From assembly GCF_900101475.1 (NCBI RefSeq), contig NZ_FMZV01000008.1:124001-188000 (forward strand): a DNA stretch of 64,000 bases, in the 5' to 3' direction. Both the position numbers and the translations under genes were made by a program. Below the pieces are notes generated by a model. That model did no database searches and was not told the origin of the DNA. It saw only the letters and a program-made list of their open reading frames with translations. The DNA comes from Ruegeria marina. Lineage in GTDB: Bacteria > Pseudomonadota > Alphaproteobacteria > Rhodobacterales > Rhodobacteraceae. Shown one piece after another: positions 1,128 to 37,198 of the stretch (position 1 is the first letter of the stretch; each line of letters begins with the position of its first letter).

Positions 1128-2038
1128 CCAATTTTGCCCAGCTTTTCTTTGATGCGACCTCGCTTGGCGGGCTCTATGCCATGGCGGCGCTGGGGATCGC
1201 ACTGATCTTCGGGGTGATGAACCTGGTGAACTTCGCGCATGGCGAATACATCGCCTTTTGCGTCTTCGCCCTGATCGTTCCCTCGACCGACGCGGTGGCG
1301 GTGATGTTTCTGGGCCACGCGCCAGCGCTGATCCTGATCCCGGTGATCCTTGCCCTGGGCGGGCTGGTCGCGGTGGCCAGCGAATATGCCGTATTCCGGC
1401 ATTTGCGGCGGGCCGATCCGGTGGCGATGATGATCGCCTCTTTCGCGCTGGGTTTCGTGATCCGAAACGCGTTGCTGGCCGCTTATGGCGGGCGGCCCAA
1501 GGCGATCAGCCTGTGGCCCGGGCTGAATATGCCCGTGAATATCGCCGGTGCCAGCGTACCGCTGTTGCAGCTGATCGTGATCGTAACGACCCTGCTGGTG
1601 GTGACCGGGCTGGCGCTGTTGCTGAAAAGGACCCGGATCGGGCTGGAAATGCGTGCCGCGGCCGAGAATTTCACCATGGCGCGGCTGTTGGGGGTGCGGG
1701 CCAACCGGGTGATCACCGGGGCCTTTGCCCTGTCGGGCGCGCTGGCTGCTGCGGTGGCGCTGATCATGGTGACGCAGACCGGTGTGGCCGACGTGAAGAT
1801 GGGCGGGCAGATCATGCTGGTGGCCTTTATCGCCACGGTTCTGGGCGGTCTGGGCTCACTTCCCGGCGCCGTGGCTGCCGGGTTCCTGGTGGGCATCGTT
1901 TCGGTTGTCTTGCAGGCCTGGCTGCCGCTCGAGGCGCGGCCGTTCCGCGATGCCTTTCTCTACACGCTGGTGATCGTCTGCCTGCTGCTGCGGCCGCAGG
2001 GGCTGTTCGTTCCCGCATCTGCCAAGCCGAGGGTCTGA
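1124..2038 (+). CDS. livH: Branched-chain amino acid-type ABC permease, LivH-like
   Basis: Integral membrane permease of 304 residues with about eight hydrophobic segments. It carries the LivH signature GLYAMAALGIALIFGVMNLVNFAHGE at its N terminus (shown by its parts GLYAMAALG and NLVNFAHGE) and the GGLGSLPGA EAA-like loop near residue 240 that docks the ATPases. It overlaps livF by 4 bases and is followed by livM after 1 base. It forms the channel with LivM in the inner membrane. Substrate not determinable here. Confidence 0.92.
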   Translation: MTNFAQLFFDATSLGGLYAMAALGIALIFGVMNLVNFAHGEYIAFCVFALIVPSTDAVAVMFLGHAPALILIPVILALGGLVAVASEYAVFRHLRRADPVAMMIASFALGFVIRNALLAAYGGRPKAISLWPGLNMPVNIAGASVPLLQLIVIVTTLLVVTGLALLLKRTRIGLEMRAAAENFTMARLLGVRANRVITGAFALSGALAAAVALIMVTQTGVADVKMGGQIMLVAFIATVLGGLGSLPGAVAAGFLVGIVSVVLQAWLPLEARPFRDAFLYTLVIVCLLLRPQGLFVPASAKPRV

Positions 2039-9177: not shown

Positions 9178-10460
9178 CCCTTGTCGTGGTCTTCGCGGGC
9201 CTGATCCTTCTGCTGCTCACGGGTATACCCATTTTCGCGGCGCTCGGCCTAACCGCCAGTGCGATCATGCTGATCGTCGAGGGTGACATCGATGGTTTGG
9301 GAAAATCCGTCTACAGCCATCTCGACAAGCCTGTTCTCGCGACGATCCCGCTCTTCGTCTTCATGGCGCAGGTGATGATCCGGGCGCGGGTGATCGATGA
9401 GCTTTATGATTTTGCGTACAAGCTGATCGGCCACGTCAAGGGCGGCCTCGGCGCGGCCACCGTGCTGGCATGCACGATCTTTGCCGCCATTTCGGGCTCT
9501 TCCGTGGCTACAGCGCTGTCGATCGGGTCGAGCGCGATCCCCCAGATGAAGCGGTTCGGCTACCCCGAGCGCGACGCTTTGGGCGTGGTAGCAGCCGGTG
9601 GAACGCTGGGTATCCTCATCCCGCCCTCGGGGCCGATGATCCTCTACGCCATTGTCTCGGAGGCGTCGATCGGCGCCCTGTTTCTTGCGGGGATCATACC
9701 AGGACTTCTTCTTGCGCTCGCCTTCTCGATCTTCTGTATCCTTCAGGCCAGGTCACGCCCTGAGATCGCCGCGCCTCAACGCGCGGACCGCCGCGAGTTA
9801 GCTCAGGCCTTCCGGCGCTCGATCTGGGCTTTGCTGGCTCCGCCTGTGGTCATGGGCGGTATCTATTTCGGAATATTCACGGCGACTGAGGCTGCAGCCG
9901 CCGGGTCCCTCTACGCACTTGTGGTGGCGGTCTTGGTCTATCGAAACTTCGGTCTGCGGGATCTGTGGAACTGCGCCTATAGCGCGATGCGGACATCCAT
10001 GATGGTCTTCATGATCATTGCCGGCGCTGCAATGTTCGGCCACGCCATAACTCTGATCCGCCTGCCTGCAGGAGTGACGGAGGCGGTGGCTGGAATGGGG
10101 CTCGGACCGCTGGGATTCATCCTGGTCGTGATGGCCTTGATCTTTGTGCTGGGGATGTTCCTCGAATCTATCGCCATCATCCTCATCACCACTCCAATCC
10201 TCCTGCCGACCATGATGGCACTGGGCGTCGATCCGATCTGGTATGGCATCCTGTTGATGATCAACCTCGAACTGGCAATGATCACGCCTCCCGTCGGGAT
10301 GAACCTTTTTGTGATCAAGGGCATAACGGACGCGCCACTCTCGACGGTTGTCCGTGGCGCGAGTCCCTTCGTTTTGCTGATGCTCGGAGGTATCGCAGTG
10401 TTGATTGCCGTTCCGGACCTGGCAACGTGGTTGCCTACGGTGGCGGGCTTTGGCAGGTAG
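9174..10460 (+). CDS. dctM: TRAP transporter large permease, DctM family
   Basis: 428-residue, about 12-helix large permease that carries the Na+-coupled substrate path. Start at 9174 (ATGA overlap with dctQ) gives the typical MTLVVVFAGLILLLLTGIPIFAA onset (visible as TGIPIFAALG); the longer frame upstream reads through dctQ. The motifs SGSSVATALSIGSSAIPQM and GILIPPSGPMILYAI are characteristic. It closes the LysR-linked catabolic unit. Confidence 0.92.
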   Translation: MTLVVVFAGLILLLLTGIPIFAALGLTASAIMLIVEGDIDGLGKSVYSHLDKPVLATIPLFVFMAQVMIRARVIDELYDFAYKLIGHVKGGLGAATVLACTIFAAISGSSVATALSIGSSAIPQMKRFGYPERDALGVVAAGGTLGILIPPSGPMILYAIVSEASIGALFLAGIIPGLLLALAFSIFCILQARSRPEIAAPQRADRRELAQAFRRSIWALLAPPVVMGGIYFGIFTATEAAAAGSLYALVVAVLVYRNFGLRDLWNCAYSAMRTSMMVFMIIAGAAMFGHAITLIRLPAGVTEAVAGMGLGPLGFILVVMALIFVLGMFLESIAIILITTPILLPTMMALGVDPIWYGILLMINLELAMITPPVGMNLFVIKGITDAPLSTVVRGASPFVLLMLGGIAVLIAVPDLATWLPTVAGFGR

Positions 10461-25887: not shown

Positions 25888-26940
25888 TCAGAAACGGACA
25901 CGCGCCGTATTGGAGAGCGAGTTGATTTCGATGAGGTCCATTTCTCCCAACCCTTTGACATCGAAATTGCCAAGTTCGTCGATCTGAAACTCGTCAACCA
26001 ATTCGTAAGTCATGCTTTCGGGAGCAACGACGGTCATCGGTTTGGCGAGAATTTGCAGGCGGGCCGCCATGTTCACTGCCGGGCCGAACACATCGTATAC
26101 GTATTTCTGGATACCGACTACTGAACCGACGGCGGCGCCTCTGCCCAAACCGATCCTTGCCCGCCACTTGTGCTGATGGCTCTCATTGCGCCGTTCCAAA
26201 TATCGGATAAAGCGGATCGCACAGCGGGCTACGGTAAGTGCGGCGTCCGGTGTCGGGTCCGGCATTCCGGCAACCGCAAGATACGCATCCCCGATCGTCT
26301 TGATCCGCTCGCAGCCGAACTGTTCTGATATCCGATCGAAAGCCGTGAAGATATCGTTCAGTTCGCCGAGTGTCACGGTCGGGTCGGTTCGCGCGGCAAA
26401 ATCCGTGAAATCGACGAAATCGAGCATGACGACTGCCACGTTATCGAACAACTGCGGGGTAACTACGCCGAAGGTCTTGAACTCTTCATAGACCGAGCGG
26501 GGCATCAGATTGAGAAGAAGTTTCTCGACCCGCTCTTTTTCGCGTTCCAGTTCGCGGGTATTGCGTTCCACCATGTTCGAATAGGTCTCAATCATGGCTT
26601 CCAATTCGCGAATGCGCGTAATGTTCTGACATTCGACCACAAGCAGCACTTCGTCATTGGCTTGCGCCGCAGAGATCGTGACGGCGATAACCAGCGTGCG
26701 GCGCTTCCGCTTTACCTTGAACTCCCCGCTGAAATTCGAAGCCCCGCTCGCCACATCGTGCAAGTTTTCGGAAGTCAGGCCATCGATGACCTGCAACAGT
26801 GTCGTGCCTTCTTCAGCCTCACCGAACCACTCTGCAAAGGAACTGTTATAAAAAGCAAAACTGCCATCCGAGCCCCTGACCAGCGCCACGCCTACACCGA
26901 TGGCACGAAGCAGGGATTCGTTGATGGCTTCAATACTCAT
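25888..26940 (-). CDS. PAS-class III adenylate cyclase coupled to truncated haemoglobin
   Basis: 350 residues, cytosolic. An N-terminal PAS-like domain (about residues 5-115), a coiled coil (RELEAMIETYSNMVERNTRE region) and the LLLNLMP linker typical of haem- and PAS-linked cyclases precede a class III catalytic domain (about 165-330). The metal aspartates are in VVMLDFVDFTDF and IKTIGDAYLAVAG, the lysine before TIGD and the aspartate in YDVFGPAVNMAARL favour ATP over GTP, and the N..R transition-state pair is present. The start overlaps the globin stop by 4 bases, so the two are translated together. Confidence 0.9.
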   Translation of the reverse strand: MSIEAINESLLRAIGVGVALVRGSDGSFAFYNSSFAEWFGEAEEGTTLLQVIDGLTSENLHDVASGASNFSGEFKVKRKRRTLVIAVTISAAQANDEVLLVVECQNITRIRELEAMIETYSNMVERNTRELEREKERVEKLLLNLMPRSVYEEFKTFGVVTPQLFDNVAVVMLDFVDFTDFAARTDPTVTLGELNDIFTAFDRISEQFGCERIKTIGDAYLAVAGMPDPTPDAALTVARCAIRFIRYLERRNESHQHKWRARIGLGRGAAVGSVVGIQKYVYDVFGPAVNMAARLQILAKPMTVVAPESMTYELVDEFQIDELGNFDVKGLGEMDLIEINSLSNTARVRF

Positions 26941-27305
26941 GAAGCCGTCACCTCGGTAACGATCAATGGTCGTTTCGACTCGATTCCGGAGATTATGGTT
27001 TCGATGTCGGCTTCGGTTACCTTGAACTGCACAAGAGCCTGCTTCAGAAGTTGCTCCATTTCGTCCATATCTTCATGGCAGATCCCGAGATGACTGTGCA
27101 CCTTCCGAAGGCGATCGTCGCTGAATGACGCCGGTCCTCCCATCACTGAAGCGATGAATTTCGTCTGATGATCAATTAGACGTGCCATATCCACATCTTC
27201 GAAATAGTCGCCGATCTGATCGCTATCCAGAGCCATGTCATAAAAGACCATGACTATCTTGCTTACGGTTTTGAAGCCGCCGTATCTGTCATAAAGTGAA
27301 CTCAT
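26937..27305 (-). CDS. Truncated haemoglobin (group I, TrHbN-like)
   Basis: 122 residues, 2/2 globin fold. Recognised by SLYDRYGGFKTVSKIVMVFYD, where Tyr22 is the B10 position, FIASVMGGPASF, and RKVHSHLGI, where His70 would be the proximal F8 haem ligand. The same residues are conserved in mycobacterial HbN, an NO dioxygenase. ATG at 27305 chosen because the family starts at LYDRYGG. It overlaps the cyclase gene and is upstream of it, so it could be the gas sensor for cAMP production or protect it from NO. Confidence 0.88.
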   Translation of the reverse strand: MSSLYDRYGGFKTVSKIVMVFYDMALDSDQIGDYFEDVDMARLIDHQTKFIASVMGGPASFSDDRLRKVHSHLGICHEDMDEMEQLLKQALVQFKVTEADIETIISGIESKRPLIVTEVTAS

Positions 27306-27555
27306 TGCGGCACCCAGTTGCACTGGAAATGCCCTAACGTTAACCAAACTCGACATACATATCAATCTAATCGCCGGCTTGACCGCTATGCAGCGCTCGG
27401 GGCGACACGCGCGCTGCGGCTCGTATCGAATGTCCGTAACGGGCTCCCTGCCGTCATCTGACGGCTTTGGTCGGATGAATGCTTAGCTCCAGGCCGCGGA
27501 CATCATTGGCTAATTCCATCGGCGCCGCCGCTGTGATTCATGAGAGACAGGCGAC

Positions 27556-27790
27556 TTGTCCAGGTCGCATCTGTTCTGGCTCGACCGCGAGCGTCCAAAC
27601 TGCATCGAGCATCTGTTTCCGAAACCTCGCGGCGTGCATGGTCCGAGGACCGCACAGTTCTTTTTGGCATCGTCCATGTCATTCGCAATGGCCTGCGATG
27701 GAGAAATGCACCAGCCGAGTATGGGCCGCACAAGACACTTCACAACTGGTTCGCCAGGGGCTCTCTTGCAAAAATTGGCTGAATGCCGAG
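27556..27790 (+). pseudogene. IS5-family transposase N-terminal remnant, frameshifted
   Basis: One frame reads HLFWLDRERPNCIEHLFPKP and the next frame continues FGIVHVIRNGLRWRNAPAEY and GPHKTLHNWFARG. These are the conserved first 80 residues of IS5-type transposases, with a frameshift near 27650 and loss of everything after GPHKTL. No terminal repeats were recognised. Confidence 0.85.
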
Positions 27791-27942
27791 GTTCCCCTTT
27801 GCCCGGACAGACTTATCCTGCGACCTCTGTGACAAGGATGCCGAGAGCGGTGTGGCCGTTCAGGACGGCGATGCGGACCTGAAGCGCGGCGCCTGTCGGT
27901 CGAAGTCGCGCGCCATGAGGCGCTGACCTGTGGCTCGATGAC

Positions 27943-28555: not shown

Positions 28556-31384
28556 TTGGAAGAGATCGAAGCCTGGCGTCGTTTCATGAAGGACAGGGAC
28601 ACGATAGTTACGGACGCGCTCGACATCATTGATGTCGGTCTCGGAGTTTTTGACCGTGAAAATTGTCTGATCTATTCGAATGCGGCCTTTCGTGACTTGC
28701 GTGGCTACCCACAAGACATTTGCCACAAAGGTGCGCCGTTGGCAGAACTCCTGACTTACAGTGCCCTTCGCGGTGACTTCGGGCCAGGAGTGCCCGAAAA
28801 GCTCGTGAAAAAGCGGCTCGACGAGATCGCGGCGGTCAAGGATCGACGCGTGGAGCATGTGCGACCCGATGGGCAGGTGCTACAGATAAGATACCAGCGC
28901 AAGAAGGATGGCGGGCTGGTTATCACCTACCGTGACACAACCGCGGAGCATCGGGCGGAAGCGGCCCTCAGGCGCAGCGAGGAACGGTACGCGCTGGTGT
29001 CCGAAGCTGCCGACGAGGCAATATACGACTGGGATATCGGCGCGGGCCGTTTCTTTGCGACACCAAGGCTGGACGACCTTCTGGACCATTCAATCTCCGG
29101 CCTGGCAAAACCAATGGAGGCGTGGCGGGACCTCGTGCATGCCGATGATCTGGAGGGATATGTCGCCGCCGTAAGGGCGCATTTCAGAGGCGAAACCGAA
29201 CAGCTGGAACAGGAGTACAGAATCCGGGTCCGCGGCGGCGGTTATCGCTGGGTCCACGACAGGGGTGTTGCCGTCCGCGATGCAACAGGACGGGTCGCAA
29301 GACTGGTGGGTGCGGTGCGCGACGTGACCGAAACGCGGACCGCCGAAGAGCAGCTGGCCGCCACTCAGGCGCGCTTGGTGTCTTCGCTGTCAAGCCTCTC
29401 TGACGGGATCCTGATGGTGGATGCCGAGCGGCGCGTGGAACTATTCAACCAGCGTTATGTCGATATATTCAGCTCGGCCGCCGGAACGGATGCCACGCCA
29501 ATCATCCGGATCGGGCGCAAGTTCTTCGACATGATCCGCGACGGCTACGACATGGGCATGTTCAAACCGCATCCCGACGGCGCCGATGCCTGGGTCGAGA
29601 ACCGTCTGAAGGCTTGGGACAGCCCCGTGTCGCAATGGGAACTGGAATTGGCCAACGGGAGCTGGATCCTGTTGAACGAACGCGAGATGCCTGATGGAGG
29701 TCGTATCTCGATCTACACCGACATCACGGAGATCAAGCGCCGCGAGGCCGAGGCCGAAGCCGCGCGTCAGCGGTTCGAGGAGGCCATCGAGGCCATCGGT
29801 TCGGGCTTTGCGCTCTGGGATTCAGAGGATCGGCTGGTGATTTCGAACAGCCGCTACCGGGCTTTCTTCGAAGGGTTGGCCGACATGGTGGTGCCGGGCA
29901 AAGCGTTCAACGACATCATCGCGGCGGGCATCCAGCGCGACATGTTTCCGCTGGCGCGAGGCGATGTCGCGGGTTACCTCGCCCGGATCGCCGAACGCCG
30001 GCTTGTCGCCGACGGTTCTGTGCGAGAGCAGTTCATCAATAGGCATTGGCTGCAAATCACCGATCACCGAACCCAAGACGGTGGAATCGTTTCCATCTAT
30101 ACCGACATCACAGAGCGCAAACTTGCAGAAGACCGGCTGAGAGCGGCCCTGTCCGAGTTCAACGCGGTATCGGAACATATCGATTATGGCATTCTCTTTA
30201 CCGGGCCCGATTTACGCGCGCGCATCGTCAACCGGGCTTTCCGCGAGCTATGGGAGATGGATCAGGAATTCATAGACACATGCCCCCACATGCAGGAGCT
30301 GATAGAATACAACCGGAAAACCGGTCTGTATTCGGTTTCAGAGGAGGAATGGGACGAATGGCTGGCTGAACGTATCTCGTCCATCAAGGCCGGAAATGTG
30401 CCGCCACGAGAGTTCGAGCGCGGCGACGGCAAGTTCCTCCGTTATCAGGTCGTCAATCTACCGGATGGTGGACGGATGCTGACCTATTTCGACATCACCG
30501 AACTGAAGGCCCGCGAGAACGAAGCGTCGCGGGCGCGCGACAAGGCGGAAACGGCCCTGGCCGATCTCAAGAAGGCTCAGGAACGCCTTGTCCAGTCCGA
30601 GAAAATGGCTTCGTTGGGCCAGCTCACTGCCGGTATCGCTCATGAAATCAAGAACCCGCTGAATTTTGTCAATAATTTCTCCAAGCTGTCGGCAGAGATG
30701 CTGGAGGAATTGGAAGAAGTCCTCGAAGAGCCAGTAAAGGCATTGGCCGAGGATGATCGTGACGAGGCTGAGGATCTGCTGAAAACGGTAAGGGAAAACC
30801 TGCTCAAGATCGCCAGGCATGGCCAGCGTGCGGACGCCATCGTCAAAAACATGCTCCTGCATTCGCGAGACGGGCCAGGCGAACGACAGTCCGTCGGGCT
30901 TAATGCCATCGCCGAAGAAGCCATGAACCTCGCGTATCACGCGGCGCGGGCCGAGGATAAGAGCTTCAACATCGAAATGGTGAAGCAACTTGATGCCGAT
31001 CTTGGCGAAGTCGTGTGCTATCCGCAGGATTTGATGCGCGTGTTTCTCAATCTGGTAACGAATGGAATGTACGCGGCCGTCAAGCATCGCGAGACAGCTG
31101 CCTCGGGGTTTGAACCCCGTATCACGCTGACGACGAAGGTCAGGGGCGATATGGCCGAAGTTCAGGTGTGTGACAACGGGGCAGGCATCCCCGAGGACGT
31201 GCGCGAAAAGATTTTTCTTCCGTTCTTTACCACCAAACCCGCAGGTGAAGGCACCGGACTGGGCCTTTCGTTGAGTTATGATATCGTGGTGAAGCAGCAC
31301 GGTGGCGCGTTGACCGTGGACAGCGCCCCAAGGAAATATACCCGTTTCACGGTTTCAATTCCGATGTCGGGCGCGACGGGGTGA
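28556..31384 (+). CDS. Soluble multi-PAS sensor histidine kinase
   Basis: 942 residues with no transmembrane helix, hence cytosolic. Roughly five PAS domains in a row (ends marked by [44 protein letters not shown]), a coiled coil, then the kinase core with phospho-accepting His696 in [14 protein letters not shown] and an ATPase domain ([20 protein letters not shown] and [13 protein letters not shown]). The start is uncertain: TTG at 28556 or ATG at 28586. It heads an operon with two receiver proteins, the second fused to a cyclase. Confidence 0.88.
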
Positions 31385-31394
31385 GGGCTGAGAC

Positions 31395-31775
31395 GTGACC
31401 ACGCATATCCTCATGGTGGACGACGAACCAGATGCGCAGGACCTGTTCCGCCAGAACTTCAGGCGTGAAATCCGCAAGGGGGTCTACAGCTTCGAATTCG
31501 CGCAGTCTGGGCGTGAAGCACTGGAAGTGATCAAGACCAAGTCGCCGGTGCTGGTTTTGTCGGACATCAATATGCCGGGCATGTCCGGGATCGAGTTGCT
31601 GTCGGAACTGCACTCGCTTTGGCCCGAACTGCCGGTCTTGATGATCTCGGCCTACGGGGATGCGGGCACCGAGGCCAGGGTGCGCGCACTTGGAGCGGAA
31701 CGGCTTGTGGCGAAACCGGTCGATTTTGCCGGGTTGAAAGACGTGCTTGAAAAGATCGCCGGAGACGCCCCATGA
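31395..31775 (+). CDS. Single-domain response regulator
   Basis: 126-residue receiver domain with no output domain. Acidic pocket DDEPD, phospho-acceptor Asp57 in LVLSDINMPGMSG and the conserved lysine in LVAKPVDF. GTG start 10 bases after the kinase stop. Its stop overlaps the next gene by 4 bases. It may relay or compete for phosphate between the kinase and the receiver-cyclase. Confidence 0.9.
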   Translation: MTTHILMVDDEPDAQDLFRQNFRREIRKGVYSFEFAQSGREALEVIKTKSPVLVLSDINMPGMSGIELLSELHSLWPELPVLMISAYGDAGTEARVRALGAERLVAKPVDFAGLKDVLEKIAGDAP

Positions 31776-33016
31776 AAGTCCCGCGCATCCTGGTGGTAGA
31801 TGATGAACCGGATGTCGAGGCGCTGATCTCTCAACGGTTCCGGCGCAAGGTGCGCAAAGGCGAGTTGGAACTGGTGTTCGCTCACGATGGCCAGCATGCG
31901 CTTGAGGTTCTGAACGAAAACCCTGACGTGGACATCGTTTTGTCGGACATCAACATGCCGCGGATGGATGGTTTGACTTTGCTGGAGCGTCTCGGCGAAC
32001 TGGAATCCGATCTGCAGACGGTCATGGTCTCGGCCTACGGAGACATGCGGAACATTCGCTCCGCCATGAACCGTGGAGCTTTCGACTTCGTAACTAAGCC
32101 CATCGAGTTCGACGATCTGGAAGCCACGATCGAGAAGACGCTGGAACACCTGCGAATGCTGCGTGATCTGCAGGCTGCCAAGGCAAATGCCGAACACGCG
32201 CATCTGATGCTGTCACGCTATTTCTCCCCGAGTGTGGCCGAGGCCCTTTCGCAGAACCCGGAGGCCATGCTTTCGGGCGAGCGTCGGGAGGCGACCTTTC
32301 TTTTCACTGACCTGGAGAATTTCACCCCACTTGTGGAAGCGACCTCCGCCGAAACGGTGGTAGGCATACTAAACGAGTATCTCGATGGGATCACCGAAAC
32401 GATCTTCAATCACGGTGGGACGGTGATGAAAATCATCGGCGATGCTGTTCAAGCCATCTTTGGTGCGCCCGTGGCCCGCGAGGATCACGCGGGCGCTGCC
32501 GTGCAATGTGCTCTGGCGCTGGATGAATTCGCCACCGGTTTTAAGGACCGGATGAACACCGCCGGTATCGCCTTGGGCAAAACCCGGATCGGTGTGAATT
32601 CGGGCTCCGCGATCATCGGCAATTTCGGAGGCCAGCGCTTCTTCGATTACACCGCTTACGGAGACGCGGTGAACATCGCGGCCCGGCTCGAACAGGCAAA
32701 CAAGATTTTCGGTACCCGCATCTGCATCAGCGAGAGTGTCGTCGACCAGATTCCGGATTTCCAGGGCAGACCGGTTGGAACCCTGCGCCTCAAGGGAAAG
32801 GAAGAAAGTATCCGGACGTTTGAACCACTGCCGGCAGAAAAGGTCGGTAGCGAGGCGATGCAGGCCTATCGCGACGCTTTCGCGCTCCTGGAAGCGCAGG
32901 ATCCCAAAGCGAGGCAGGCCTTTGCCGCCCTGGTCGGCGCCTTTGATGAAGACCCGCTGACGATGTTCCACCTCGGGCGATTACTGCGCGGCGAAGCGGG
33001 GGCCGAGATCTCTTGA
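31772..33016 (+). CDS. Response regulator-adenylate cyclase fusion
   Basis: 414 residues. Receiver at 1-130 (Asp59 in IVLSDINMPRMDG; KPIEFDD), a short helical linker, then a class III cyclase (about 165-345): TFLFTDLENFTPLVE and MKIIGDAVQAIFGAPV carry the metal aspartates, and YTAYGDAVNIAARLEQ has threonine where class IIIa enzymes have aspartate. That makes it class IIIb, the CyaC/soluble-AC type often stimulated by bicarbonate. ATGA overlap with the preceding receiver. Phosphorylation by the upstream kinase probably sets cAMP output. Confidence 0.9.
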   Translation: MKVPRILVVDDEPDVEALISQRFRRKVRKGELELVFAHDGQHALEVLNENPDVDIVLSDINMPRMDGLTLLERLGELESDLQTVMVSAYGDMRNIRSAMNRGAFDFVTKPIEFDDLEATIEKTLEHLRMLRDLQAAKANAEHAHLMLSRYFSPSVAEALSQNPEAMLSGERREATFLFTDLENFTPLVEATSAETVVGILNEYLDGITETIFNHGGTVMKIIGDAVQAIFGAPVAREDHAGAAVQCALALDEFATGFKDRMNTAGIALGKTRIGVNSGSAIIGNFGGQRFFDYTAYGDAVNIAARLEQANKIFGTRICISESVVDQIPDFQGRPVGTLRLKGKEESIRTFEPLPAEKVGSEAMQAYRDAFALLEAQDPKARQAFAALVGAFDEDPLTMFHLGRLLRGEAGAEIS

Positions 33017-33922: not shown

Positions 33923-34432
33923 TTGGCTTCCAGGCACAGCAGACGCGACATCCTACGCGGAGCGATCCGGCACGATCGGGCGCAGATCATGCGTCCGCCC
34001 GGCGCGCAGCCGGATTTCGACCGGCTATGCGACGACTGCGGGGCCTGCTCGCAGGCTTGCCCGCAGCGAATTGTCCGACGCTCAGAACATGGTGGGCCCG
34101 TGGTGGATTTCAGGCACGGGGCTTGCACTTTCTGCGGCGATTGCGCACGTGCCTGTCCCACCGGGGCACTGGTCGCCGAGGACATCGGCGTCTGGCCTTG
34201 GCGAGCATCCATCCTTTCGTCCTGCCTTTCTTACAACGGGGTGTCCTGCCGAAGCTGTGAGGATGCCTGCGAACCGCGCGCGATCCGCTTTCGCCTGCAA
34301 ACGGGGGGACGAGCTGTTCCTGTCCTGGATCAGCAGGCCTGTACGGGATGCGGCGAGTGCGCCTTTACCTGCCCCGCGCAGTCGGTCGCCTTTGAGTGCC
34401 CCATGCCTATCAAGATGGAGATCACAGCATGA
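33923..34432 (+). CDS. napF: Ferredoxin-type protein NapF
   Basis: 169-residue cytosolic iron-sulfur protein. Three cysteine clusters are visible: CDDCGACSQACP and CTFCGDCARACP with CRSCEDACEP, then CTGCGECAFTCP. The N terminus SRHSRRDILRGA is typical of NapF, which matures or interacts with NapA before export. A TTG start is used; no ATG lies in frame nearby. It overlaps napD by 4 bases. Confidence 0.88.
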   Translation: MASRHSRRDILRGAIRHDRAQIMRPPGAQPDFDRLCDDCGACSQACPQRIVRRSEHGGPVVDFRHGACTFCGDCARACPTGALVAEDIGVWPWRASILSSCLSYNGVSCRSCEDACEPRAIRFRLQTGGRAVPVLDQQACTGCGECAFTCPAQSVAFECPMPIKMEITA

Positions 34433-34701
34433 ACATCTGTGGATGCCTCATCCATGTCGCGCCAGCGGCACTGAGCGAGGCCCGCCCCCGGATCGAAGGG
34501 ATGAACGGGGTGGAAATTCATGCGGGAACCAAGGATGGCCGCCTGGTCGTGGTCGTCGAGGATACCGACGATGCCTATGCCTCGGACACCATCATGGCGC
34601 TGCACCAAATTCCGGGCGTCATCTCGTTGACGCTCAACTATCACCATTTCGAAGACCTGTCGCCGCGGGCCACGCTCGCCGCCACTCAGCCGGAGAACTG
34701 A
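34429..34701 (+). CDS. napD: NapA signal-peptide chaperone NapD
   Basis: 90 residues, the usual NapD size, starting [12 protein letters not shown] and containing the [19 protein letters not shown] ferredoxin-like strands. NapD binds the Tat signal of NapA until cofactor insertion is complete. ATGA overlap with napF and 1 base before napA. Confidence 0.92.
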
Positions 34702-34702
34702 C

Positions 34703-37198
34703 ATGACCATCTCGGACTCACGCCGGACCTTCCTCAAGGCCACTGCCGCGGCCAGCACCGCCGCCGCGGTCGGTATTCCGTTGGCAACGGCTCCTGCCGT
34801 TGCGCAAACCGCCGGAGGCGGCGGTATTCGCTGGGACAAGGCGCCCTGTCGTTTCTGTGGCACCGGCTGCTCGGTGCTGGTGGGCGTCAAGGACGGGCGC
34901 GTCGTTGCGACCCAAGGTGACCCCGACGCGCCAGTGAACCGCGGTCTCAACTGCATCAAGGGCTATTTCCTGTCCAAGATCATGTATGGCGCGGACCGCC
35001 TGACCATGCCGTTGTTGCGCAAGACGAATGGTGTCTACGACAAGAACGGCGAGTTCGAACCGGTCAGTTGGGATGAAGCCTTCGACATCATGGCGCAGAA
35101 GTGGAAAGAGGCCCTGTCCAAGAAGGGCCCGACCGCGGTCGGCATGTTCGGATCGGGTCAGTGGACCGTCTGGGAAGGTTACGCCGCGGCCAAGTTCATG
35201 AAGGCGGGCCTGCGGTCGAACAACATCGACCCGAATGCGCGGCATTGCATGGCCTCGGCCGTGGTGGGCTTCATGCGCGCCTTCGGCATCGACGAACCGA
35301 TGGGCTGCTATGACGACCTGGAGCATGCGGACACCTTCGTGCTGTGGGGATCGAACATGGCCGAGATGCACCCGATCCTGTGGTCGCGCCTGACCGACAC
35401 CCGCCTGACCAAGCCTGGCGCCGAGGTGCATGTCCTGTCGACCTTCGAACACCGGTCGTTCGAGCTGGCTGACAACGGTATCGTGTTCAACCCGCAGTCC
35501 GACCTCGCGATCCTGAACTATATCGCGAATTACATCATCCAGAATGACGCGGTGAACTGGGACTTCGTCAACAAGCATGTCGTATTCAAGAAGACCGAAA
35601 CCGACATCGGCTACGGGCTGCGCCCGGAGCATGAATTGCAGCAGGCCGCCGCAAACCCGGATTCAGGCAAGCTGTCCGACCTGACCTTCGAGGAATACGC
35701 TGCCTCGGTCGCCGAATACACGGTCGAGAAGGCCTCGGAGATCTCAGGCGTGCCCGTGCACCAGCTGGAACGCCTGGCGCAGCAATATGCAGACCCGAAC
35801 CGCAAGGTTATGTCGTTGTGGACCATGGGTTTCAACCAGCACACGCGCGGATCCTGGGTGAACGGGCTGATGTACAACGTGCATCTGCTGACCGGCAAGA
35901 TTTCCGAGCCCGGCAACTCGCCCTTCTCGTTGACCGGTCAGCCCTCTGCCTGCGGTACGGCGCGCGAGGTTGGTACCTTTGCCCACCGTCTGCCCGCCGA
36001 CATGGTGGTGATGAACGAAAAGCACCGCGAGATCTGCGAAACCGCCTGGGGCATCCCGGCCGGGACCATTCCCGAAAAACCCGGCTTCCACGCCGTGTTG
36101 CAGAACCGGATGCTGAAGGACGGTGTACTGAACGCCTATTGGGTGCAGTGCAACAACAACATGCAGGCCGCGCCCAACATCAACGAGGAAGGCTTCCCGG
36201 GCTATCGCAACCCGGAAAACTTCATTACCGTGTCCGATCCTTACCCGACCGTGACCGCTATGGCCGCCGACCTCATCCTGCCCACCGCAATGTGGGTGGA
36301 AAAGGAAGGCGCCTATGGCAATGCCGAGCGCCGTACCCAGTTCTGGCGCCAGCAGGTCGATGCGCCGGGCGAGGCGCGCTCGGACATGTGGCAGGTCATG
36401 GAATTCGCCAAGCGGTTCACCGTCGAGGAAGCCTGGGGCGCGGAACTGGTGGCGCAAAAACCTGAACTGGCCGGCAAGACGCTGTTCCAGGTGCTGTTCG
36501 AGAACGGCAAGGTCAACGCCTACCCGCTCAGCGAAACCGCCGACGGTTTCGAGAACCAGGAAAGCAAGCATTTCGGGTTCTACGTCCAGAAAGGGCTATT
36601 CGAGGAATACGCCGAGTTCGGTCGTCATCATGGTCACGACCTGGCAGATTTCGATGTCTATCACCAGGCCCGTGGCCTGCGCTGGCCAGTCGTCGACGGC
36701 AAGGAGACCTTGTACCGGTTCCGCGAAGGCTATGACCCCTATGTGCCGGTCGGCGAAGGGGTGCGTTTTTACGGCAATGCGGACGGAAAGGCGAAGATCA
36801 TCTTCGCGCCTTTCGAAGCGGCCGCGGAGGCGCCGGACGAGGAATACGACCTGTGGCTGTGTACGGGCCGGGTGCTGGAACACTGGCATTCCGGGTCGAT
36901 GACGCGGCGCGTGCCGGAACTTCATCGGGCCTTCCCGAACGCGCTGGTGTTCATGCATCCCGAAGATGCGAAGGCGCGCGATTTGCGGCGCGGGCAGGAG
37001 ATAATGATCTCGACCCGCCGGGGGCAAATGTTGAGCCGGGTAGAAACCCGCGGCCGCAACAAGCCGCCGAGGGGCCTGGTTTTCGTGCCGTGGTTCGACG
37101 AGGGCCAATTGATCAACAAGCTGACGCTGGATGCGACCTGCCCGCTATCGAAGGAAACCGATTTCAAGAAATGCGCCTGCAAGGTCGAGCGCGCCTGA
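34703..37198 (+). CDS. napA: Periplasmic nitrate reductase catalytic subunit NapA
   Basis: 831-residue molybdopterin enzyme reducing nitrate to nitrite in the periplasm. Tat signal [20 protein letters not shown]; [4Fe-4S] motif CRFCGTGC with the fourth cysteine in GLNCIKGYF; Mo-ligating cysteine in [10 protein letters not shown]. Length agrees with NapA of proteobacteria. It lies between napD and napG, the arrangement of enterobacterial nap. Electrons reach it through NapB. Confidence 0.96.

Follow-up and report, generated by a model that had tools for sequence, protein, structure and literature searches.

Several described systems couple a haem protein to a signalling enzyme. In soluble guanylate cyclase, the domains follow each other in the order H-NOX–PAS–coiled coil–cyclase. 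A globin as gas input is joined to a cyclase as output in globin-coupled sensors and in HemAC-Lm of Leishmania, both being fused proteins with sensor globins of another kind than the one treated here, and stand-alone H-NOX or NosP proteins are small haem proteins encoded in an operon with a histidine kinase or a diguanylate cyclase. GlbN of Synechocystis and Synechococcus and THB1 of Chlamydomonas belong, like the globin described here, to the group I truncated haemoglobins and have at position E10 a residue that could be a distal ligand (His in GlbN, Lys in THB1), and in GlbN His46 itself is an iron ligand; we know of no cyclase partner for either protein. HemAc-Lm is named an O2-sensing soluble adenylate cyclase in the available part of PMC12755159, the available part of PMC7082302 terms the Synechocystis and Synechococcus globins hexacoordinate and gives Lys E10 as the sixth ligand of THB1, and the accessible text of PMC4720485 flags that a His or Lys in position E10 may act as a ligand.

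In this study, we analysed a stretch of 64,000 nucleotides from Ruegeria marina (the window), in which a truncated haemoglobin gene is followed by a cyclase gene. By its predicted architecture, the pair shares with soluble guanylate cyclase the order PAS–helix–class III cyclase and a haem protein as presumed input; however, its haem part is a truncated globin instead of an H-NOX domain and resides on a separate polypeptide, while its cyclase has the adenylate-type residues Lys214/Asp283 and an HNOBA match below the cut-off. Because an H-NOX domain is absent, we file the pair outside the soluble guanylate cyclases, as a putative further kind of haem-regulated nucleotide cyclase. A globin as presumed gas input and a cyclase as output are also found in globin-coupled sensors and HemAC-Lm, but here a 2/2 group I globin is encoded by its own gene, giving two open reading frames and no fusion. 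The operons of H-NOX or NosP likewise combine a small haem protein with a signalling enzyme, whereas the haem fold of the present pair is unrelated to theirs and its partner an adenylate cyclase. No description of such a globin–cyclase pair was found in the open-licence literature among the matches listed, nor in the available parts of PMC4720485, PMC12755159, PMC4319818, PMC7082302 and PMC1592074, in line with the remark of an initial annotation that this is not a standard described system. The truncated haemoglobin of Roseobacter denitrificans was considered as the same gene and rejected, the published protein being group II and the word "cyclase" being absent from the main text of PMC4319818 as far as that text is available.

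We propose, with moderate confidence, that the pair is a split analogue of haem-regulated cyclases based on a truncated haemoglobin, i.e. a two-protein sensor. Beyond the initial annotation, the analysis brought up His46 at position E10, the likeness to soluble guanylate cyclase and the presence of kinase and response-regulator genes near some pairs.

Layout of the gene pair

The globin and cyclase reading frames with an ATGA overlap, as called in the initial annotation, could be confirmed on the minus strand, where the globin gene runs from its ATG at 27305 to its TGA at 26939-26937 and the cyclase ATG lies at 26940 (Table 1). The layout also fits the translational coupling proposed there: the pair is conserved, it overlaps by ATGA, and a 4-nt overlap was observed in 70 of 91 scored junctions, the others being spaced -11 to 134 nt. 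These junctions were drawn from 99 locus entries, two of them without the pair and six without a clear start, with genome G037 entered twice. Gene overlap can also be compatible with stoichiometry without binding of the two proteins.

Table 1 Positions of the gene pair and its parts in the window, and of oxidoreductase genes recurring in related loci
Feature	Position	Strand	Basis
Group I truncated haemoglobin gene, 122 aa	26937..27305	minus	ORF calling, Pfam, solved relatives, row alignment
PAS–helix–class III nucleotide cyclase gene, 350 aa	25888..26940	minus	ORFs, Pfam, AlphaFold2 model, Foldseek
ATGA stop/start overlap of globin and cyclase genes	26937..26940	minus	
PAS domain of cyclase, aa 14-106	26623..26901	minus	AlphaFold2 model; Pfam PAS_8 in relatives
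Signalling helix / coiled coil of cyclase, aa 108-145	26506..26619	minus	AlphaFold2 model; weak HNOBA-end match
Class III cyclase catalytic domain, aa 161-335	25936..26460	minus	Pfam; six catalytic positions checked
Two FAD oxidoreductases	L216 4547-7120, L214 6065-8498, L218 5795-8371 (globin on +); L223 1477-3905; L108 7428-9855		

Just upstream of the globin gene, an IS5-type transposase-like remnant was read by eye at about 27540-27830 of the window. Divergently from the pair, at 28556-33016 on the plus strand, consecutive genes encode a histidine kinase with several PAS domains, a receiver standing alone and a protein that joins a receiver to a nucleotide cyclase, and this gene row is possibly a second cAMP-making system beside the pair. 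Also on the plus strand, at 33923-37198 and ~7 kb from the pair, the gene of a 4Fe-4S protein (Pfam) is followed by a molybdopterin-oxidoreductase-like gene; judged by eye, we take the two to be like napF and napA of a periplasmic nitrate reductase. The genome of the window contains 13 cNMP_binding matches, and the proteins behind them could be candidate readers of cAMP.

The truncated haemoglobin

The globin matches Bac_globin with 59.5 bits against a Pfam cut-off of 21, and its closest solved relatives in the PDB are mainly group I truncated haemoglobins, HbN and cyanoglobin first. Tyr22 and His70 align with the residues of HbN which we take to be B10 and F8, bearing out the earlier assignment as a TrHbN-like globin. 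The pocket comprises Tyr22 (B10), Phe35 (CD1), Leu43 (E7), Asp45 (E9), His46 (E10), Gln47 (E11) and His70 (F8), so that Tyr B10 and His F8, as named in the initial annotation, are present together with Phe CD1 and Gln E11. Over 118 rows of the clade, His F8, Gln E11 and His E10 are found without exception (118/118 each), Tyr B10 and Phe CD1 in 117/118, the missing letter being a gap, and Asp E9 in 117. The pattern of the public scan included DHQ, by which position E10 is biased in the rows from that scan; His E10 is, however, found in all 38 rows from outside the scan and also in L225. Among the 11 other truncated globins fetched, which belong to the stronger matches, E10 is Lys, Met, Arg or Ser and in no case His. 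In trees, the clade is separated by a branch with 100/100 support, both with 19 rows and, after addition of L225, with 20 rows.

His46 and His70 align with the same-numbered His residues of the Synechocystis cyanoglobin 1s69, the second via an ungapped preceding stretch. Since E10 is an invariant His in the clade and aligns with that of a hexacoordinate cyanoglobin, we predict that the iron is probably coordinated by both His46 and His70.

The same pocket brings up a different reading, in which the globin would act enzymatically, as an NO dioxygenase, a peroxidase or a scavenger of O2/NO. It would clear away the ligand or by-product to which the PAS–cyclase responds, or would reset the PAS–cyclase, and the two proteins would share operon and stimulus and form no sensor complex. 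The Tyr B10/Gln E11 pair is as in HbN, where this pocket is linked to NO dioxygenation, which speaks for such a role, whereas at position E15, occupied by the gate residue Phe in HbN, 111 of 118 rows have Ile or Val. We regard this reading as improbable.

Group I truncated globin domains were also observed inside CheA-type chemotaxis kinases with the order Hpt–globin–kinase (L158 1033-3360, L159 1048-3354, L161 1-1333 and L164 1-2979), the protein of L164 having two globin domains and a receiver; L158 and L164 were assigned by Pfam, L159 and L161 were read by eye. No paper with both CheA and truncated hemoglobin was found among the matches listed (15 of 306).

The cyclase

The cyclase matches Guanylate_cyc with 129.9 bits against a Pfam cut-off of 21.9 and resembles vertebrate and mycobacterial class III enzymes. 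As noted in the initial annotation, its catalytic residues are complete, all six positions checked being present: Asp174 and Asp218, presumably binding metal, Lys214 and Asp283, presumably recognising adenine, and Asn290 and Arg294, presumably acting on the transition state. Lys and Asp at the adenine positions confer adenylate-type (ATP) specificity; Lys214 and Asp283 therefore point to ATP as the likely substrate. The six positions are kept in 102 of 113 cyclase rows, while 11 depart at at least one of them, several badly.

For the PAS domain, Pfam gave no match in the window protein itself, while PAS_8 was matched in relatives (L003, E 9.8e-7; Novosphingobium, E 2.5e-5). The AlphaFold2 model, built with 30 sequences (pLDDT 85, pTM 0.56), places a short helix first, followed by a PAS-like order of strands and helices, a long helix and the catalytic domain. 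Together, the PAS-like fold in the model and the matches in relatives uphold the PAS part of the original description. Foldseek with the 350-residue model listed bacterial Cya (5o5k/5o5l) at the top and then chains of soluble guanylate cyclase, the latter over 361-386 columns including gaps, with E from 1.5e-18, TM about 0.5 and rmsd about 11-12 Å. From this alignment length, the likeness extends past the cyclase domain alone, and we put the high rmsd down to different hinge angles. HNOBA was matched at the helix with the end of the profile only (21.9 bits, below the cut-off of 23.4), and no H-NOX (HNOB) match was found in the cyclase chain at E <= 0.001. The helix is more strongly conserved than the PAS domain (0.77 vs 0.46 in 22 non-redundant pairs).

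Within aa 1-147 of the cyclase, no His or Cys is invariant over the 113 rows. Cys104 recurs in 94 of 113 rows including the window, and 61 of 113 rows have His at position 31, the residue of the window being Tyr, so that the PAS domain may have a cofactor or ligand of its own. Such a ligand, with Cys104 as candidate site, would suit a globin that serves as an enzyme upstream of the PAS–cyclase.

Distribution and linkage of the pair

A close globin (E below 1e-30) was found in four of 61 genomes (the window's own, which is one of the four, and 60 relatives), with the same cyclase following it in all four; in the genus of the window, one of five genomes has the pair. From the cyclase side, a search of 385 class genomes turned up 48 matches at E <= 1e-40, with only the best few candidates per genome scored. 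All 17 cyclases that match beyond the catalytic domain have a globin upstream on the same strand, whereas none of the 13 fetched out of 31 catalytic-only matches has one within 1.5 kb (17/17 vs 0/13, Fisher p 8e-9). The cyclase frame is interrupted in two of these loci (L018 and L024), and in L024 the globin, too, is incomplete. Starting from the globin, a public scan of 84,980 species yielded 260 loci; in 77 of the best 80, which were kept, a cyclase lies downstream of the globin (in L090, the cyclase is cut by the contig end), and in three the globin is without an intact cyclase, with none in L053 and L082 and a C-terminal piece only in L105. A profile of 30 globins run against the same 385 class genomes retrieved 20 clade members, of which 17 are paired, among them L157, where a fragment of the globin adjoins an interrupted cyclase, and three lack a cyclase (L152, L154 and L225, the last on contig 41 of G129). 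In the family of the window, the globin is present in 20 of 295 genomes, making the pair accessory, and all 21 loci are paired, the cyclase of L194 being very divergent. At the level of the phylum (398 genomes), the three full-length cyclase matches (G000, G190 and G655) all belong to the class of the window and all have the globin, while six catalytic-only matches have no adjoining globin. Some genomes belong to two collections, so that these pairing counts overlap. Among the genomes searched here, pairing was observed in alphaproteobacteria only, with Ruegeria, Leisingera, Roseibium, Stappia and Novosphingobium as named genera, and it persists in several families to about 32% identity of either protein. 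The initial annotation had raised the case of a pair confined to this genome; the cyclase-side and globin-side counts instead reveal a widespread pair, carried by many marine bacteria and their relatives, and its conservation across genomes is far beyond chance.

Distances between globins and between cyclases are correlated with r 0.91 over 93 pairs, the highest value of 1000 permutations being 0.31; common species descent accounts for part of this correlation. No fused globin–cyclase gene was found in the pair loci examined, which show separate frames or an intervening stop. None of the 11 other truncated globins fetched has a cyclase of this type within 1.5 kb. The near-constant co-occurrence suggests a role for the globin as a sensor, of a gas or of redox state, by which the cyclase is controlled. 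The few loci with the globin alone would be in keeping with an enzymatic role; a scavenger, however, could do without a constant partner, which the globins of this clade lack only rarely, while all 11 other truncated globins fetched are unpaired.

Neighbouring genes vary by lineage, with common neighbours in the close Ruegeria and Leisingera loci, and due to these differences between lineages the pair looks portable. This variation also bears on the reading that globin and cyclase are operon companions only, having one promoter and a common condition and no functional link. Against such companionship, pairing has been kept to about 32% identity in several families and the 4-nt overlap is mostly conserved while the neighbours change, and we consider it very unlikely.

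A link to NO and denitrification was examined through the gene of copper nitrite reductase (nirK), which is over the cut-off in 5/20 carriers of the pair vs 34/275 other genomes (Fisher p 0.16) and in the genome of the window no nirK was over the cut-off, so that the tie to NO drawn in the initial annotation gains no support from the distribution of nirK. In L154, the globin gene has an ATGA overlap with that of a 146-aa partner. Reading this protein as a homologue of the PAS domain alone was rejected, as it shows no significant similarity to the cyclase profile (hhalign E 0.06, probability 0.9%) and has no Pfam match. In L152, the clade globin at 1489-1944 (minus strand, no cyclase) lies beside the alpha subunit of a Rieske ring-hydroxylating oxygenase at 28-1401.

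Altered cyclases and kinase-linked loci

In L214, L216, L217 and L218, four loci from four genomes, the cyclase gene is directly followed by a third gene, which encodes a histidine kinase matching PAS. The same arrangement is found on plasmid pLA3 of Novosphingobium pentaromativorans US6-1, where a response regulator comes after the kinase. All five kinase-linked cyclases are changed at both Asn290 and Arg294, two of them also at a metal Asp, and they form one clade with 100/98 support, so that the kinase link may be a single event. Further alterations are found in L005 (Lys, Asn and Arg) and its neighbour L106 (Arg only), in L117 (Asn to Asp), in L021 and L022 (Lys to Arg) and in L194, which forms a very long branch. 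His E10 is retained in the globins paired with all these altered cyclases. As side observations, the genome of L194 and L219 (G865) has a second, very divergent globin–cyclase pair beside the kinase-linked one, its cyclase being changed at four of six catalytic positions, and in L135 an open reading frame at 9476-9898 (globin-oriented coordinates), by eye like a second globin of the 3/3 type, lies directly behind a degenerate cyclase.

These loci permit a reading in which the conserved core would be a sensor complex of globin and PAS that acts chiefly through a two-component phosphorelay. The cyclase would then be of secondary importance and, in one branch, a pseudo-enzyme linking the globin to the PAS histidine kinase. 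This reading draws on the kinase as third gene in all five loci with altered Asn290 and Arg294 and on the kinases or response regulators related to those of Novosphingobium near other pairs (L104, L106, L108/L203, L111, L119, L128 and L210), mostly in the opposite direction. On the other hand, the six catalytic positions are intact in most cyclase rows, the window included, a kinase of the cluster to which the neighbouring kinase in the window belongs is found in only 7 of 81 ten-kb loci, and the kinase-linked cyclases are one clade; we therefore judge a phosphorelay as main output to be quite unlikely. Nevertheless, because several relatives keep the globin with a damaged or absent cyclase, cAMP may not be the sole output. 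The one clear clade is a hint that globin and PAS input form the core and that the output is changeable.

Two FAD-dependent oxidoreductases recur near the pair (Table 1), identified by Pfam for the Novosphingobium ones and by similarity for the others; a globin reductase, or an oxygenase pathway under globin control, are possible roles. Relatives of at least one of the two Novosphingobium enzymes are encoded no more than about 5 kb from the globin in L108/L203, L124 and L214-L218, and, as they could reduce the globin, they would suit an enzymatic globin.

Proposed model of the pair as a two-protein sensor

Both genes, their conservation, their overlapping layout, the pocket and catalytic residues and the predicted PAS–helix–cyclase architecture are directly supported by the data above. 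On this basis, we propose a model in which the truncated haemoglobin would be the haem input subunit, docking on the PAS domain or the helix of a cyclase that would form a homodimer joined through its coiled coil. With the sensor at rest, the iron would probably be bound by both His46 (E10) and His70 (F8). Incoming O2 or NO, or a change in the oxidation state of the iron, would displace His46 and thereby move helix E, and this motion would be passed via the PAS domain to the signalling helix, shift the two catalytic halves and alter cAMP output. The overall logic would be like that of soluble guanylate cyclase, with the haem domain placed on a separate polypeptide of another fold. Haem binding, the bis-His state, the dimer, the docking, the direction of control, the ligand and cAMP as product are all putative elements of this model. 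Several observations weigh against it: a few loci have the globin without an intact cyclase, 11 of 113 cyclase rows are altered at catalytic positions, the PAS domain may bind a ligand of its own, the pair is accessory, and overlapping genes are also compatible with a role in stoichiometry.

A tethered globin–PAS AlphaFold2 model reached a pLDDT of 92.7 and a pTM of 0.66, with a pLDDT of 57 in the linker block, and is a single model without negative control; in its alignment, about three residues are misplaced per PAS-only row and the first ~34 PAS positions come from five rows. Foldseek on this model listed globins and PAS proteins.

A further-reaching version, which we advance only tentatively and consider rather doubtful, is that of a portable split analogue of soluble guanylate cyclase with a bis-histidyl globin in place of H-NOX, whose core would be the globin–PAS contact and which would have been rewired at least once to a phosphorelay via a pseudo-enzyme cyclase between globin and kinase. 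If this "globin-for-H-NOX" reading is true, it would represent a new class of haem sensing.

Conclusions

In our judgement, the cellular role of most truncated haemoglobins is unsettled. The clade described here is rarely without one particular cyclase, which gives it a concrete and testable role as a signal input. If the two-protein sensor proposed here is true, haem-regulated cyclases would have arisen in nature in a second form, whose haem fold is unrelated and belongs to a subunit of its own.
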